From positions 1 through 36,680 of the forward strand of contig NZ_JH376583.1 of assembly GCF_000233955.1 (NCBI RefSeq): a DNA stretch of 36,680 nucleotides, in the 5' to 3' direction. The notes beneath the pieces are model-generated. The model had not been told where the DNA came from. It did not search any database and worked only from the letters and a program-made list of their open reading frames with translations. Made by a program: the position numbers and the translations under genes. This DNA comes from Paraprevotella clara YIT 11840 (lineage in GTDB: Bacteria > Bacteroidota > Bacteroidia > Bacteroidales > Bacteroidaceae). How positions within the stretch are numbered: position 1 is the first letter of the stretch; each line of letters starts with the position of its first letter. Positions 2,834 through 17,346 of the stretch are shown piece by piece.

Positions 2834-3720
2834 GATTCTTCCCTTGGGTCGGTGCCCCACATGAGCTTTTCACGCAAGGTGGAGTAAAACGAATGGTTCT
2901 TGCGTTGCAATACCTTTATATTATAAGGAGCTCGGCGAAGGATGAGGCGCGTGGCTTCGGTGCAGGCTTCGCTGCGTCCGTCTATAGCCACGAGGAAATT
3001 ATGGTTGCGGGATTCTACCGATAGCGTGAGTTCTACTTGGTCGCGGAGTGTGATGGGGCGTGCGTTCAGGCTGTGGGAGGCTACGGGCGTAATGCAGAAT
3101 GTACCGGATTGGGGCACGATGATGGGGCCTCCTACGCTCAAGGCATAACCGGTGGAACCCGTGGGTGTGTTGATGATGAGGCCGTCAGCCTGATAAGTGG
3201 CCAGAAATTCACCATTCACTTCCACCCGGATGGAAATCATGGAGGAGTTGTCCCGTTTCAGGACAGCCACTTCGTTCAGGGCGTATGGGTATCCGGAGAG
3301 TTCCGGACCTTCGTATTTCACTTCGATGACGCTACGCTCATCAATTTTATATGTGTGGTTGTAGATGTCGTCGATGCATTCGTTGATTTCTTCCGGAGAC
3401 ACATCGGCTAAGAAGCCGAGCCGCCCCATGTTGATTCCCAATATAGGTATGTCTTTACTTCCCACCCGACTGGCTGCGGCCAGAAAAGTTCCGTCACCTC
3501 CCATGCTGACTGCGATGTCTGCCTGAAAATCGCTGTCTGATATCAGTCCGGTAGGACAGACGTCGAAATGAAGTTCCTGGCTGAGGTAGGTATAGAAATC
3601 GGTGTCGATATAGAGTTCGGCATCGCGTGCGGCCAACAAGGAAATGAGTTGTTTGACCGAAGCCGACTTTTTAGCTTGATAGATGTTGCCGAACAGGGCG
3701 AATTTGAGTCTTTCTGCCAT
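2827..3720 (-). CDS. nadK: NAD kinase
   Basis: Phosphorylates NAD to NADP with ATP in the cytoplasm and so controls the NADP pool. The 297-residue length is normal. Visible marks are the GGDGTFL motif (74-80), GINMGRLGFL that follows it, the NE pair in YALNEVAVL, and the glycine-rich NTPTGSTGY loop. It is the first gene of a two-gene minus-strand unit with the ABC exporter, which overlaps its stop codon. It is divergent from pdxJ across ~100 bp that contains promoter boxes for both directions. Confidence 0.95.
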   Translation of the reverse strand: MAERLKFALFGNIYQAKKSASVKQLISLLAARDAELYIDTDFYTYLSQELHFDVCPTGLISDSDFQADIAVSMGGDGTFLAAASRVGSKDIPILGINMGRLGFLADVSPEEINECIDDIYNHTYKIDERSVIEVKYEGPELSGYPYALNEVAVLKRDNSSMISIRVEVNGEFLATYQADGLIINTPTGSTGYALSVGGPIIVPQSGTFCITPVASHSLNARPITLRDQVELTLSVESRNHNFLVAIDGRSEACTEATRLILRRAPYNIKVLQRKNHSFYSTLREKLMWGTDPREESC

Positions 3721-11250: not shown

Positions 11251-11790
11251 ATGGATACACAAGGACAATTTGAGCAAATAATGAAGGAGTGTCGGGAACT
11301 GTTCGCCAAAAAGTTGCATGATTACGGTGCGGCGTGGCGTATCATGCGTCCGGCTTCGGTGACAGACCAGATATTTATTAAGGCCAATCGTATCCGTAGT
11401 TTGGAGGTGAAAGGGGTCTCGTTGGTCGGTGAGGGCATTCGCCCGGAGTTCATGGCTATCGTGAATTACAGTATTGTCGGCCTGATACAGTTGGAGCTGG
11501 GCTATGCCGACGCGGAAGACATGACGGCTGAACGTGCCTTGGAATATTACGATAAATACGCGGGGCTTTCGCTCGCTTTGATGTTGAAGAAAAACCACGA
11601 TTACGATGAGGCTTGGCGCGGCATGCGCATCAGTTCTTATACAGATCTTATCTTGATGAAGCTTTACCGGACCAAGCAGATTGAGGCTTTGGCGGGGCAG
11701 ACTTTGGTGTCGGAGGGAGTGGATGCCAATTACATGGACATGATGAATTATGCCGTATTCGGGCTGATAAAATTGACGTTCGGTGAATAG
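11251..11790 (+). CDS. DUF1599 domain protein with internal duplication
   Basis: A 179-residue soluble protein made of two similar halves. [14 protein letters not shown] (21-34) matches [14 protein letters not shown] (114-127), and [20 protein letters not shown] (57-76) matches [20 protein letters not shown] (151-170). The family is annotated as DUF1599, which I recall as nucleotide-modification associated domain 1; its biochemical role is not established. The gene is first in a unit whose next start (GTG at 11783) overlaps its stop by 8 bases. The conserved position next to the DoxX-thioredoxin gene and tpiA suggests a housekeeping role in Bacteroides, but no function can be assigned. Confidence 0.85.
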
Positions 11791-13867
11791 ATTGGGATAT
11801 AAATTACGTTGGGTTGCCGTGAATGTCAGCCGTTTGTTGCTGGCTGTGACTTTCGTCTTCTCCGGATTGGTGAAAGTGGTTGACCCGCGTGGTACCCAAT
11901 ACAAATTCGATGACTATTTTCAGGCATTCGGTTGGTCGGAATGGATTCCCGGCTTTTTGCCGCTCTGGCTGGCTGTTCTTTTGGCGGTTTTTGAATTTTG
12001 TATAGGGATATATCTGTTCTTTGGGATACGTCGGCGCGCGACTTCCTGGCTTTTTTTGCTGTTCATGAGTGTGATGACGCCTCTGACGTTTTATCTGGCT
12101 TTGGCCGATCCTGTGTCGGATTGCGGATGTTTCGGAGATGCCGTGTCGTTGACGAACTGGGAGACGTTCGGCAAGAATGTTGTGCTGTTGGGCTTGTCCG
12201 TGCTCGTTTTTCGTTACCGTCGGTTGATGGTGCGCTTTGTTTCCGAACGCAACCAGTGGATGATTTCCCTCTATTCTATCTTTTTTGCCTTTGTTCTGGC
12301 GGGTTTCTGTATCTATTATCTTCCGGTTTTCGATTTCCGTCCTTATCATATCGGAGTAAATCTTCCCCGATCGATGGTGGTTCCGGAAGGAGAGGAGGAG
12401 CCGGAGTATCTTACGACATTCGTACTTGAAAAGGATGGAGTAAAGAAAGAATTCACTACGGAAGATTATCCCGAGGACACGGCCTGGCATTTTGTGGAGA
12501 GCCGGACGGTGTTGGTGAAAGAAGGATATGTGCCCCCCGTACATGATTTTTCGATTATGACGTGGCCTGATGGAGAGGATATCACGGAGCAGGTTTTGTC
12601 GGACAAAGGATATACTTTCTTATTAATCTCTCCTTATCTGGAGTTTGCGGACGACAGCAATATAGACCGTATCAATGAACTTTATGACTATTGCGGCGAA
12701 CATGGGTATGCCTTTTATTGTCTGACGGCATCCGGTGATGACGTGATTGGGCGATGGCAGGACCTGACGGGGGCGGATTATCCTTTTGGCATAACGGATG
12801 AAATCACGTTGAAAACCATTGTGCGCTCCAATCCCGGGCTGGTATTGTTGAAAGAGGGTACAGTGTATAACAAATGGAGTTGTAATAACCTTCCGAAAGA
12901 AGAGGACCTGAATGTGCCGTTGGAAGACGGTGAATTGGGGCGTTTGCAGTCGGCATCGCGGATGATGACGACGTTGCGTGTCGTCCTGTGGTTCCTTGTC
13001 CCCCTGTTTGTGCTGGTGTTTGCCGACCGGATATGGGTGGGGAGTAAGATGTACAGACGAATGAAACATAAAAATAGAATTATCAACCTTTTAAAAAGAA
13101 AAGAAATGAGAAAGAAAATTGTTGCAGGTAACTGGAAGATGAACCTGAATTTGCAGGAAGGTGTAGCTTTGGCTACTGAGTTGAATGCGGCTTTGGCTGC
13201 CGACAAACCGAATTGTGATGTAGTCATCTGTACGCCGTTCATCCACTTGGCTTCCGTAGCCGCTGTATTGGATGCCCAGACTATCGGTTTGGGTGCAGAG
13301 AACTGTGCAGACAAGGAAAAAGGCGCATACACTGGCGAGGTGTCTGCCGAGATGGTAAAATCTACCGGTGCGCAGTATGTCATTTTGGGGCATTCGGAGC
13401 GTCGTGCTTACTACGGCGAGACAGCCGAAATCCTGAAAGAGAAGGTAAACTTGGCTTTGGCAAACGGCCTGAAGGTCATCTTTTGTATCGGTGAGGTTTT
13501 GGAAGAGCGCGAGGCTGACAAGCAGAACGAAGTGGTGAAGGCACAGTTGGCCGGTTCTTTGTTCGATTTGACGGCAGAACAGTTCTCCAACATTATTCTG
13601 GCATACGAACCGGTATGGGCTATCGGCACGGGAAAGACGGCTACGGCTGAGCAGGCAGAAGAGATGCATGCTTTCATCCGTACGACCATTGCCGAGAAGT
13701 TCGGTGTAGAGGCTGCCGAGAATGTTTCCATCCTTTACGGCGGAAGCTGTAAGCCTTCGAACGCAAAAGAGATTTTTGCAAAGCCCGATGTTGACGGCGG
13801 TTTGATTGGCGGTGCCGCTTTGAAGTGCGCAGACTTCAAGGGTATCATCGACGCTTGGAAAGCTTAA
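11783..13867 (+). CDS. DoxX/thioredoxin-like membrane protein reading in frame into triosephosphate isomerase
   Basis: One uninterrupted 694-codon frame. Residues 1-441 resemble the BT_3928 family: five likely membrane helices of a DoxX/MauE-like unit (about 10-33, 57-82, 86-107, 128-146, 158-183) with a DCGCFGD redox-type motif (Cys114, Cys116), a thioredoxin-like soluble part (~185-395, [12 protein letters not shown], then [17 protein letters not shown]), a sixth helix (~398-421) and a basic tail. Residues 442-694 are complete TpiA. In relatives the two are, as I recall, separate adjacent genes. Here no stop lies between them, while the other frames have stops close by. With six helices and basic residues before residue 441, the isomerase would face the cytoplasm. 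The start is GTG, overlapping the DUF1599 stop. It could be a true fusion, a recent stop loss or a one-base sequencing error near the A/T-rich junction at about 13090-13105. Confidence 0.8.
13106..13867 (+). CDS. tpiA: Triosephosphate isomerase (own start inside the longer frame)
   Basis: Interconverts dihydroxyacetone phosphate and glyceraldehyde 3-phosphate in glycolysis. From the ATG at 13106 the product has 253 residues, the normal full length, beginning [12 protein letters not shown] with the catalytic Lys. The catalytic His lies in ILGHSERR, the catalytic Glu in [14 protein letters not shown], and the phosphate-binding loop is [13 protein letters not shown], then [10 protein letters not shown] purine-rich AAAAAGAAAAGAA run lies before the ATG, typical of Bacteroides start regions. 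Codon choice looks like a highly expressed gene. It is therefore likely translated on its own even if the longer frame is also read. Confidence 0.9.
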
Positions 13868-16266: not shown

Positions 16267-17346
16267 ATGAAACGTAATTTACTTTTTCCGTTGGCTGTTT
16301 TGCTGTTTTTTTCGACCAATGTTAAGGCACAGGAAATCCATGAGGCAAGTGTGTTGCCATATGTGCCTAATTTTATTCCCACAGCTTACACGCAAGGTGG
16401 AAAGGTGCTATTTTTCACGGTAGAGGGGGGAAGGTATGACAATGAAAGTCTTTCAAACGGAGATTTTACAGTCTATGATGCCGATTTTGAGGAAGTGAAG
16501 AAAATTTCCGTTCCGGAGGAAACGTGTAAAACATATACTTTGGTAAGTAGGCGTGCGGCTGTGACTGATCCGTTTACGGGAGTTGTAACTTATACAGGAG
16601 AATGGGAGACTACACGAGAAGAAGATGATTATCAGTGGCGCTGTTGCAGGTCTTTGGGCTTGTGTACGGAAGTTGATCATGGTATTGCCGAGGCTTTCGA
16701 AAACCAACGGTTGTTCTTGACTCAAACTTTGTTTAATGAGGATGACAAGTTCGAGTATTTGTTTGAGACGATAGAGGTGAAGGAAACCTCCAAATATGAA
16801 AGGGACAGGGACGGTGACGGGGTGACAGATGAAGTTACAAGGTCCTATTCGGCTGTGGAATCCGGTTTGGAAATCCGGCAAGATGACGGGACGGTGTTGT
16901 TCCGGCATGATTATGCAGATTTGAATAATGTCATGGGTACGGAGGCCATGCTTTACCGTGTAGGTGGGAAAACGTATTTGGTAATCGAAGAAAATGGCTA
17001 TATGGATGGCTCGGAAGAAAGATTTCGTTCATATACTATCTATCTTATAGATTCAAAGGCCAATACGATAAAGGAACTCAAGCGTTCAAGTTGTGTGCGT
17101 GCTTATCCTAATCCGGCTCGGAAGGGGGAGGTGGTTACGATGGAAATTCCTATCGCGGAAGATAAGGCAAGCCAGCGTGAGGTGTGTGTGACTTCGGTGG
17201 ACGGGCGTACGGTGACACGGATGTCTGTGGAGGCCGGAGTGCGCACCGTTCAAATTCCCATACAGCGGATACCATCAGGAGTATATAACTTCACGCTGAC
17301 CGAGAAGGGGCGTGTGGTGGAAAATAGCCGCATTATTGTGCGTTAA
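16267..17346 (+). CDS. Secreted protein with type IX secretion C-terminal sorting domain
   Basis: A 359-residue exported protein of unknown function. The signal peptide is clear (MKRNLLFPLAVLLFFSTNVK, then AQE). The body is beta-rich and polar without a domain I recognise; a Cys pair (RCCRSLGLC) lies near 120. The last ~80 residues form a Por-type sorting domain: VRAYPNPARKGEVVTMEIP, then SVDGRTVTRM, IPSGVYNFTLTEKGRVV and a final IIVR. The YPNP start and short basic end are typical of type A signals, so the protein should cross the outer membrane by T9SS, if the cell has one. A purine-rich AGAGGAG abuts the ATG. It follows the structured leader by 86 bases and has its own terminator. Confidence 0.85.
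   Translation: MKRNLLFPLAVLLFFSTNVKAQEIHEASVLPYVPNFIPTAYTQGGKVLFFTVEGGRYDNESLSNGDFTVYDADFEEVKKISVPEETCKTYTLVSRRAAVTDPFTGVVTYTGEWETTREEDDYQWRCCRSLGLCTEVDHGIAEAFENQRLFLTQTLFNEDDKFEYLFETIEVKETSKYERDRDGDGVTDEVTRSYSAVESGLEIRQDDGTVLFRHDYADLNNVMGTEAMLYRVGGKTYLVIEENGYMDGSEERFRSYTIYLIDSKANTIKELKRSSCVRAYPNPARKGEVVTMEIPIAEDKASQREVCVTSVDGRTVTRMSVEAGVRTVQIPIQRIPSGVYNFTLTEKGRVVENSRIIVR

Follow-up and report, generated by a model that had tools for sequence, protein, structure and literature searches.

Triosephosphate isomerase (TIM) is reportedly the C-terminal half of the phosphoglycerate kinase-TIM of Thermotoga maritima, a protein said to have been described by Schurig in 1995. At the locus considered here TIM is likewise within a longer covalent chain with the product of a neighboring gene, but where the partner in Thermotoga maritima is a soluble glycolytic enzyme, here it is a predicted six-helix membrane protein, joined in frame and with the internal start of TIM kept. 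Cas11b-type genes (PMC11899642) also have two starts that give two products from one frame, the C-terminal product being short. Here, in contrast, the short product would be an entire housekeeping enzyme, the long one would be membrane-bound, and the case is known from sequence. In Flavobacterium johnsoniae adenines at positions -3, -6, -12 and -13 tune initiation (Baez 2019, PMC6847099). This Kozak-like initiation of the Bacteroidota, with A at those positions and low structure at the start, has its counterpart at the present locus, except that here the signal is inside an open coding frame and that the sequence studied has G at -3.

The membrane partner belongs to the BT_3928 family (NF045576), with the gene order DUF1599 - BT_3928 - tpiA - SPOR - folE, and the domain and neighbors are the same in the window, by which is meant the whole stretch of 36,680 nucleotides from Paraprevotella clara YIT 11840 that was analyzed. 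In RefSeq the fused frame of one Bacteroides finegoldii record (WP_320582645.1) is one CDS with the gene name tpiA and the product name BT_3928 family protein, which hides the TIM domain; annotation can thus name a fused enzyme after its membrane half alone. In Parabacteroides distasonis, by contrast, BT_3928 and tpiA are two CDSs in RefSeq. No paper on the BT_3928-TIM fusion or on BT_3928 was found in the literature searched, most subscription papers and supplements being beyond reach; PMC5972207 concerns SemiSWEET gene neighbors and not the BT_3928-TIM fusion.

In the window a single open frame runs from a GTG to a TAA without internal stop, and its 694 codons translate to 694 amino acids, with the ATG of TIM as codon 442, in frame with the upstream membrane gene (Table 1). 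NF045576 matches residues 13-371 with 505.7 bits against a cut-off of 250 (profile positions 2-358 of 358), while PF07291 (MauE) and PF07681 (DoxX) match residues 12-142 and 15-100 with 67.6 and 41 bits, the gathering cut-offs being 27 and 23.6, respectively. In the TIM part PF00121 matches residues 445-691 with 315.3 bits (positions 1-244 of 245) and TIGR00419 scores 198.7 against a cut-off of 130.6. Several narrower NCBI TIM models fall below their own cut-offs (PRK00042.2-1, for example, with 217.1 against 293), and PRK13962, the model for bifunctional phosphoglycerate kinase/TIM, reaches 301.5 against a cut-off of 883, with the TIM half alone matched. An earlier note on this DNA had a 441-codon membrane gene running stop-free into a complete 253-codon tpiA, with both parts seemingly intact, six helices and a basic tail that would put the isomerase on the cytoplasmic face. 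The open frame, the full extent of both families, the profile matches above cut-offs and the kept TIM motifs bear out the first two points, and structural models and the charge pattern agree with the rest as a prediction.

Table 1. Features of the fused locus in the window, with coordinates, strand and basis of assignment
Feature	Coordinates	Strand	Basis
Whole fused frame, BT_3928-family membrane protein plus TIM, 694 codons	11783..13867	+	Open frame; families; 11 other genomes of the genus
BT_3928-family part (codons 1-441), comprising a membrane domain of MauE/DoxX type and a thioredoxin-like domain predicted to be periplasmic	11783..13105	+	NF045576, PF07291, PF07681; models
Triosephosphate isomerase, 253 codons plus stop	13106..13867	+	PF00121 and TIGR00419 above cut-off; model resembles 7rpn
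Five predicted N-terminal membrane helices, model residues 3-33, 58-80, 84-108, 125-144 and 155-178	11789..12316	+	AlphaFold2 models
Predicted sixth membrane helix, residues 393-425 (membrane-part model), to 437 (fusion model)	12959..13057	+	AlphaFold2 models; hydropathy 395-413
Cys-Gly-Cys, residues 114-116, in the loop joining helices 3 and 4, predicted to be periplasmic	12122..12130	+	Invariant in alignments
Predicted periplasmic thioredoxin-like domain, residues 208-376, without CxxC	12404..12910	+	Foldseek matches
Basic linker to TIM, residues 415-441, 10 Lys + Arg against 2 Asp + Glu	13025..13105	+	Charge count; pN/pS
TCAACCTTTTAAA, conserved tpiA leader element (TNAACCYTTTWAA-like) within the coding linker	13083..13095	+	Recurrence before ATG
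Putative internal TIM start region around ATG 13106, with A at -6, -12 and -13 but G at -3	13086..13108	+	Determinants of PMC6847099

An AlphaFold2 model of the fusion, built with 46 sequences, has pLDDT 84.6 and pTM 0.57, and its order is five helices, an alpha/beta domain (residues 208-376), a long sixth helix and the TIM barrel; residues 429-442 are below pLDDT 50. A simple hydropathy scan recovers four of the five N-terminal helices and also flags two stretches within soluble TIM, and so is weak support for the helices. Basic residues number three at the N-terminus, three and five in the inner loops, none in the loop with Cys-Gly-Cys and ten in the linker, a distribution that fits a positive-inside topology with both N- and C-termini on the inner side. 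C114 and C116 are the only invariant cysteines of the membrane part (37/37 and 46/46 aligned sequences). For the soluble domain a thioredoxin-like fold is predicted: in Foldseek the model of residues 208-376 matches thiol-disulfide oxidoreductases and peroxiredoxins (best E 9.7e-05), with ResA chains at TMt up to 0.67. A CxxC active site is absent from these residues in the window's sequence, and no cysteine is invariant in this region among the same 46 or 37 aligned sequences. A sequence search for solved relatives of the membrane part gave none below E 0.84. The juxtaposition of a membrane domain with an invariant Cys-Gly-Cys and a thioredoxin-like domain devoid of CxxC is an unusual redox pairing. 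The same genome also encodes a second DoxX/MauE-like protein (L002, G000:C41:6972-7538), which has 36% identity to residues 7-195.

A search of the window's genome at E 0.001 gave no second TIM, the other match covering the DoxX part alone. N450 and K452, H537 and E609, which we take to be the catalytic Asn and Lys, His and Glu of TIM, are invariant across 46 aligned fused sequences, and the TIM motifs are intact in 117 of 118 fused loci. The modeled barrel matches 7rpn, the TIM of B. thetaiotaomicron, with 78% identity. The N-terminus of TIM is on the barrel face opposite the active site, and so a tether at that end should be tolerated.

Comparison of the locus among genomes started from 306 loci, of which 298 had a TIM match and 252 were left after removal of duplicates, 118 being fused and 134 having two genes. 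Twelve of 18 genomes of the window's genus are fused; a second assembly, G087, has an open junction and 98% identity over 694 amino acids, and the junction is also open in ten further genomes of the genus. In a second genus 13 of 80 genomes are fused, with the broken matches of G665, G666, G686 and G698 not counted as such, and in a third about 49 of 100, on a count of rows by eye comprising 48 with a match that crosses the junction stop-free plus G621 (L193), whose stop is not between the parts. Of 247 genomes drawn from the order, at least four outside the family are fused, and they belong to two other families, one to f3 (L140) and three to f25 (L145, L146, L165) among the matches listed. 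Searching contigs of other genomes with the fused protein, a procedure that favors in-frame loci, left 80 loci: in 62 the frame crosses the junction unbroken, and in 18 it meets a stop ahead of tpiA. Among named isolates, those with the fusion include Bacteroides finegoldii DSM 17565, Segatella copri iAQ1173, S. buccae ATCC 33574, Hoylesella enoeca, H. pleuritidis, X. caecicola, P. lacticifex and P. vespertina, and those without it include Phocaeicola vulgatus ATCC 8482, H. timonensis, P. pectinovora and Caecibacteroides pullorum. Six genomes of the window's genus have the genes apart, and in all five that are readable over the junction the upstream membrane gene is in another frame and ends 26 bases inside tpiA, the sixth being unreadable there; such a 26-base out-of-frame overlap (L086, L105, L106, L128, L129) could couple translation. 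Ten candidate long-linker fusions (L247-L256), suggested by open frames of 711-805 amino acids, were rejected because in each the two genes are divided by a stop or lie in different frames; these and, likewise, G364 (L227) were counted as separate; open frames of 639-655 at TIM in G362, G521, G522 and G401 (L228-L231) also have a stop between the genes. Three loci of the third genus (L257-L259, in G614, G572 and G596) have a fused frame of about 645 codons that is short of some 50 residues near positions 200-246 of the membrane part.

The fused or separate state is inherited, yet it switches often. A FastTree tree of 250 loci (two short loci of the 252 were dropped and branch supports were left unweighed) requires at least 34 changes of state, and since the lowest number in 200 label shuffles was 71 (mean 83), the state follows ancestry. 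Among the 252 loci the TIM frame is open for at least 25 codons upstream in 120 of 180 in-frame and six of 72 different-frame cases, the first proportion being inflated because many loci were found using the fused protein. With genome-search loci alone the values are 57 of 99 and six of 72, in a comparison that ignores relatedness and includes some loci hand-chosen for fetching. Fusion is peculiar to this gene pair in the 81 loci in which its neighbors were also compared, the window included: BT_3928 and TIM are fused in 63, as against 0/81 for DUF1599-BT_3928, 0/67 for TIM-SPOR and 0/78 for SPOR-FolE.

The ATG of TIM is retained in all 118 fused and all 134 separate loci. The mean number of adenines at -3, -6, -12 and -13 is 3.55 of four in fused loci, 3.23 in separate loci and 1.04 at 3056 other in-frame ATGs, the frequencies of A at the respective positions being 0.88, 0.97, 0.84 and 0.86 in fused loci against 0.30, 0.22, 0.28 and 0.24 at the other ATGs. 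Shuffling of the linker codons gives a score of 2.47, with 2.70 the largest of 1000, against the real 3.55. The window itself has three of the four determinants, with G rather than A at -3, as do L090, L102, L003 and L004 of its genus. On these measures the initiation signal at the ATG of TIM surpasses that of the other in-frame ATGs. There is almost no structure around the start (mean -0.60 kcal/mol, compared with -7.02 for 1000 other ATGs), but codon-shuffled linkers, at -1.09 kcal/mol, are nearly as unstructured, and low structure is weakened as independent evidence of a start, being mostly a matter of base composition. A promoter of its own for tpiA was rejected, as a -7 element (TAHHTTTG) within 250 bases upstream is present in just seven of the 118 fused loci and 16 of the 134 separate ones; with no such housekeeping-type element in 111 of the fused loci, tpiA and the gene upstream are probably on one mRNA.

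The linker has its own character. Net charge over its last 25 residues averages +6.8 in the 118 fused loci (range -3 to +12). In nine fused loci of the window's genus pN/pS for the last 21 linker codons is 0.20, compared with 0.26 in the membrane part, 0.06 in TIM, and 2.21 and 1.17 in the other frames of the linker, and the linker amino acids there appear to be under constraint. A Prevotella clade has 0.34 for the linker, 0.25 for the membrane part and 0.65 and 0.95 for the other frames; in a Bacteroides clade the values are 0.55, 0.46, and 1.43 and 0.65, and so its linker is close to one wrong-frame value. The noncoding control, four separate loci and eight codons, gave 0.21; it is too small to be useful and fails to tell coding from noncoding sequence. 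Since relatives in the window's genus that have two genes also retain a basic-linker-like tail, a low pN/pS is not proof of selection for the fusion, and the linker may be retained as a tail of the membrane protein itself. The last 12 linker codons depart strongly from codon choice in both bodies toward A/T-rich synonyms, with CAA making up 0.96 of Gln codons (0.30 and 0.28 in the two bodies) and TTA 0.67 of Leu codons (0.07 and 0.04), and the A-rich linker may be an old non-coding leader that was later read through. An AACnnnTTTAA-like element is present at -24 to -20 in 65 of the 118 fused loci and 62 of the 134 separate ones, counted from the ATG, compared with three of 2772 control segments of the TIM body, and in the window it is the only match when one mismatch is allowed, against a chance expectation of 1.12. 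As a genome-wide motif it was rejected, there being three matches in the genome against seven for the reversed pattern.

The arrangement is probably one gene with two starts, yielding both membrane-tethered and soluble TIM from one frame. That TIM keeps a start of its own was already in the earlier note and holds in every fused locus; that two products could be made, one of them membrane-tethered, was also raised there as a possibility, and of this what stands is that it is the best reading at the level of sequence, given start context and predicted topology. Ribosomes that start at about 11783 would synthesize the BT_3928-family part and, as no stop intervenes, run on into TIM, and every full-length membrane chain would then carry a TIM domain on the cytoplasmic face; TIM would be obligatory on such chains since the frame offers release solely by cleavage or slippage. 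Initiation at the internal ATG on the same mRNA would give ordinary soluble TIM. TIM is a dimer, and we infer that tethered and free subunits could pair, in which case some of the TIM in the cell would be located at the inner membrane. Lineages would move between the fused and two-gene states via changes at the A-rich junction.

Error in assembly or base calling, or a recent loss of a stop, was the caution of the earlier note, and the junction is indeed rich in A/T runs in a genome of 165 contigs. However, comparison of the junction in relatives, which that note had proposed, finds it open in 11 other genomes of the genus and in other genera, in most of the loci from other genomes (the 62 of 80 in the search favoring in-frame loci), and also in single-contig genomes such as G005, G163, G177, G279, G550 and G565; with the fusion common to many species and several named isolates, recent stop loss is set aside and an error in the window's genome is exceedingly improbable. 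It is improbable, though less so, that the full-length chain does not persist and is resolved into separate products by cleavage in the linker or by -1 slippage. Cleavage would suit a flexible linker of low model confidence next to TIM. As to slippage, the junction has an in-frame heptamer, T TTA AAA, of the kind prone to -1 slippage (window 13090-13096), and T TTA AAN is in frame in 34 of the 118 fused loci, the window included. Further, the -1 frame most often ends 26 bases inside tpiA (38 of 118 fused loci), the same place at which the membrane gene ends in the readable separate genomes of the genus. The heptamer is, however, missing from the other 84 fused loci, and as it sits in the leader element common to separate loci it needs no frameshifting as explanation; programmed frameshifting at the junction is only a lead. 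Even less probable than loss of the chain is that the fusion is the sole product and the internal start a relic. The paucity of -7 elements and the probable shared mRNA are what such a relic would have, but the adenine context in fused loci is at least equal to that in separate genomes, and a cell's demand for TIM is usually far above the amounts of a membrane protein.

The rival to be taken most seriously concerns function and is compatible with the two-start anatomy: neutral stop loss, with a tolerated but functionless tether that comes and goes by drift, has a probability approaching, though not reaching, an even chance. The frequent switching on the tree is in keeping with it, as is the spread of separate loci from the genome search over the three offsets (44, 42 and 30 for offsets 0, 1 and 2). 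Open frames nevertheless persist over clades, even though some 7% of single-base substitutions across the final 28 codons would create a stop, and the rows of one Prevotella clade, which differ from its first row at 13-20 of 72 linker bases, are still open; the chance of staying open under random change is 0.37-0.47 per row, values that shared history forbids multiplying. Such long-lived open frames speak against pure neutrality, just as the switches, which show tethering to be dispensable, speak against an essential role for the tether. Selection for tethering is possible but on balance doubtful. Equally tentative is the fuller version of the two-start reading, that Paraprevotella, Prevotella-type bacteria and some Bacteroides tether part of their TIM to the inner membrane via a MauE/DoxX-type protein, both products of the dual-start gene being selected and small changes at the junction toggling the tether.

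Membrane localization of glycolytic enzymes in bacteria is hard to test, their binding usually being weak. A covalent TIM tether in common gut bacteria that is absent from close relatives would make its effect directly testable, and, if the reading is right, would set species that have a membrane-bound glycolytic step beside naturally matched ones that lack it. The retention of a start signal within an open coding frame is of interest from an initiation perspective, the phylum being one that lacks Shine-Dalgarno sites. Elsewhere in the window, at 16267-17346 between the genes for ferritin and thiG, is a protein with a Por secretion C-terminal sorting domain.
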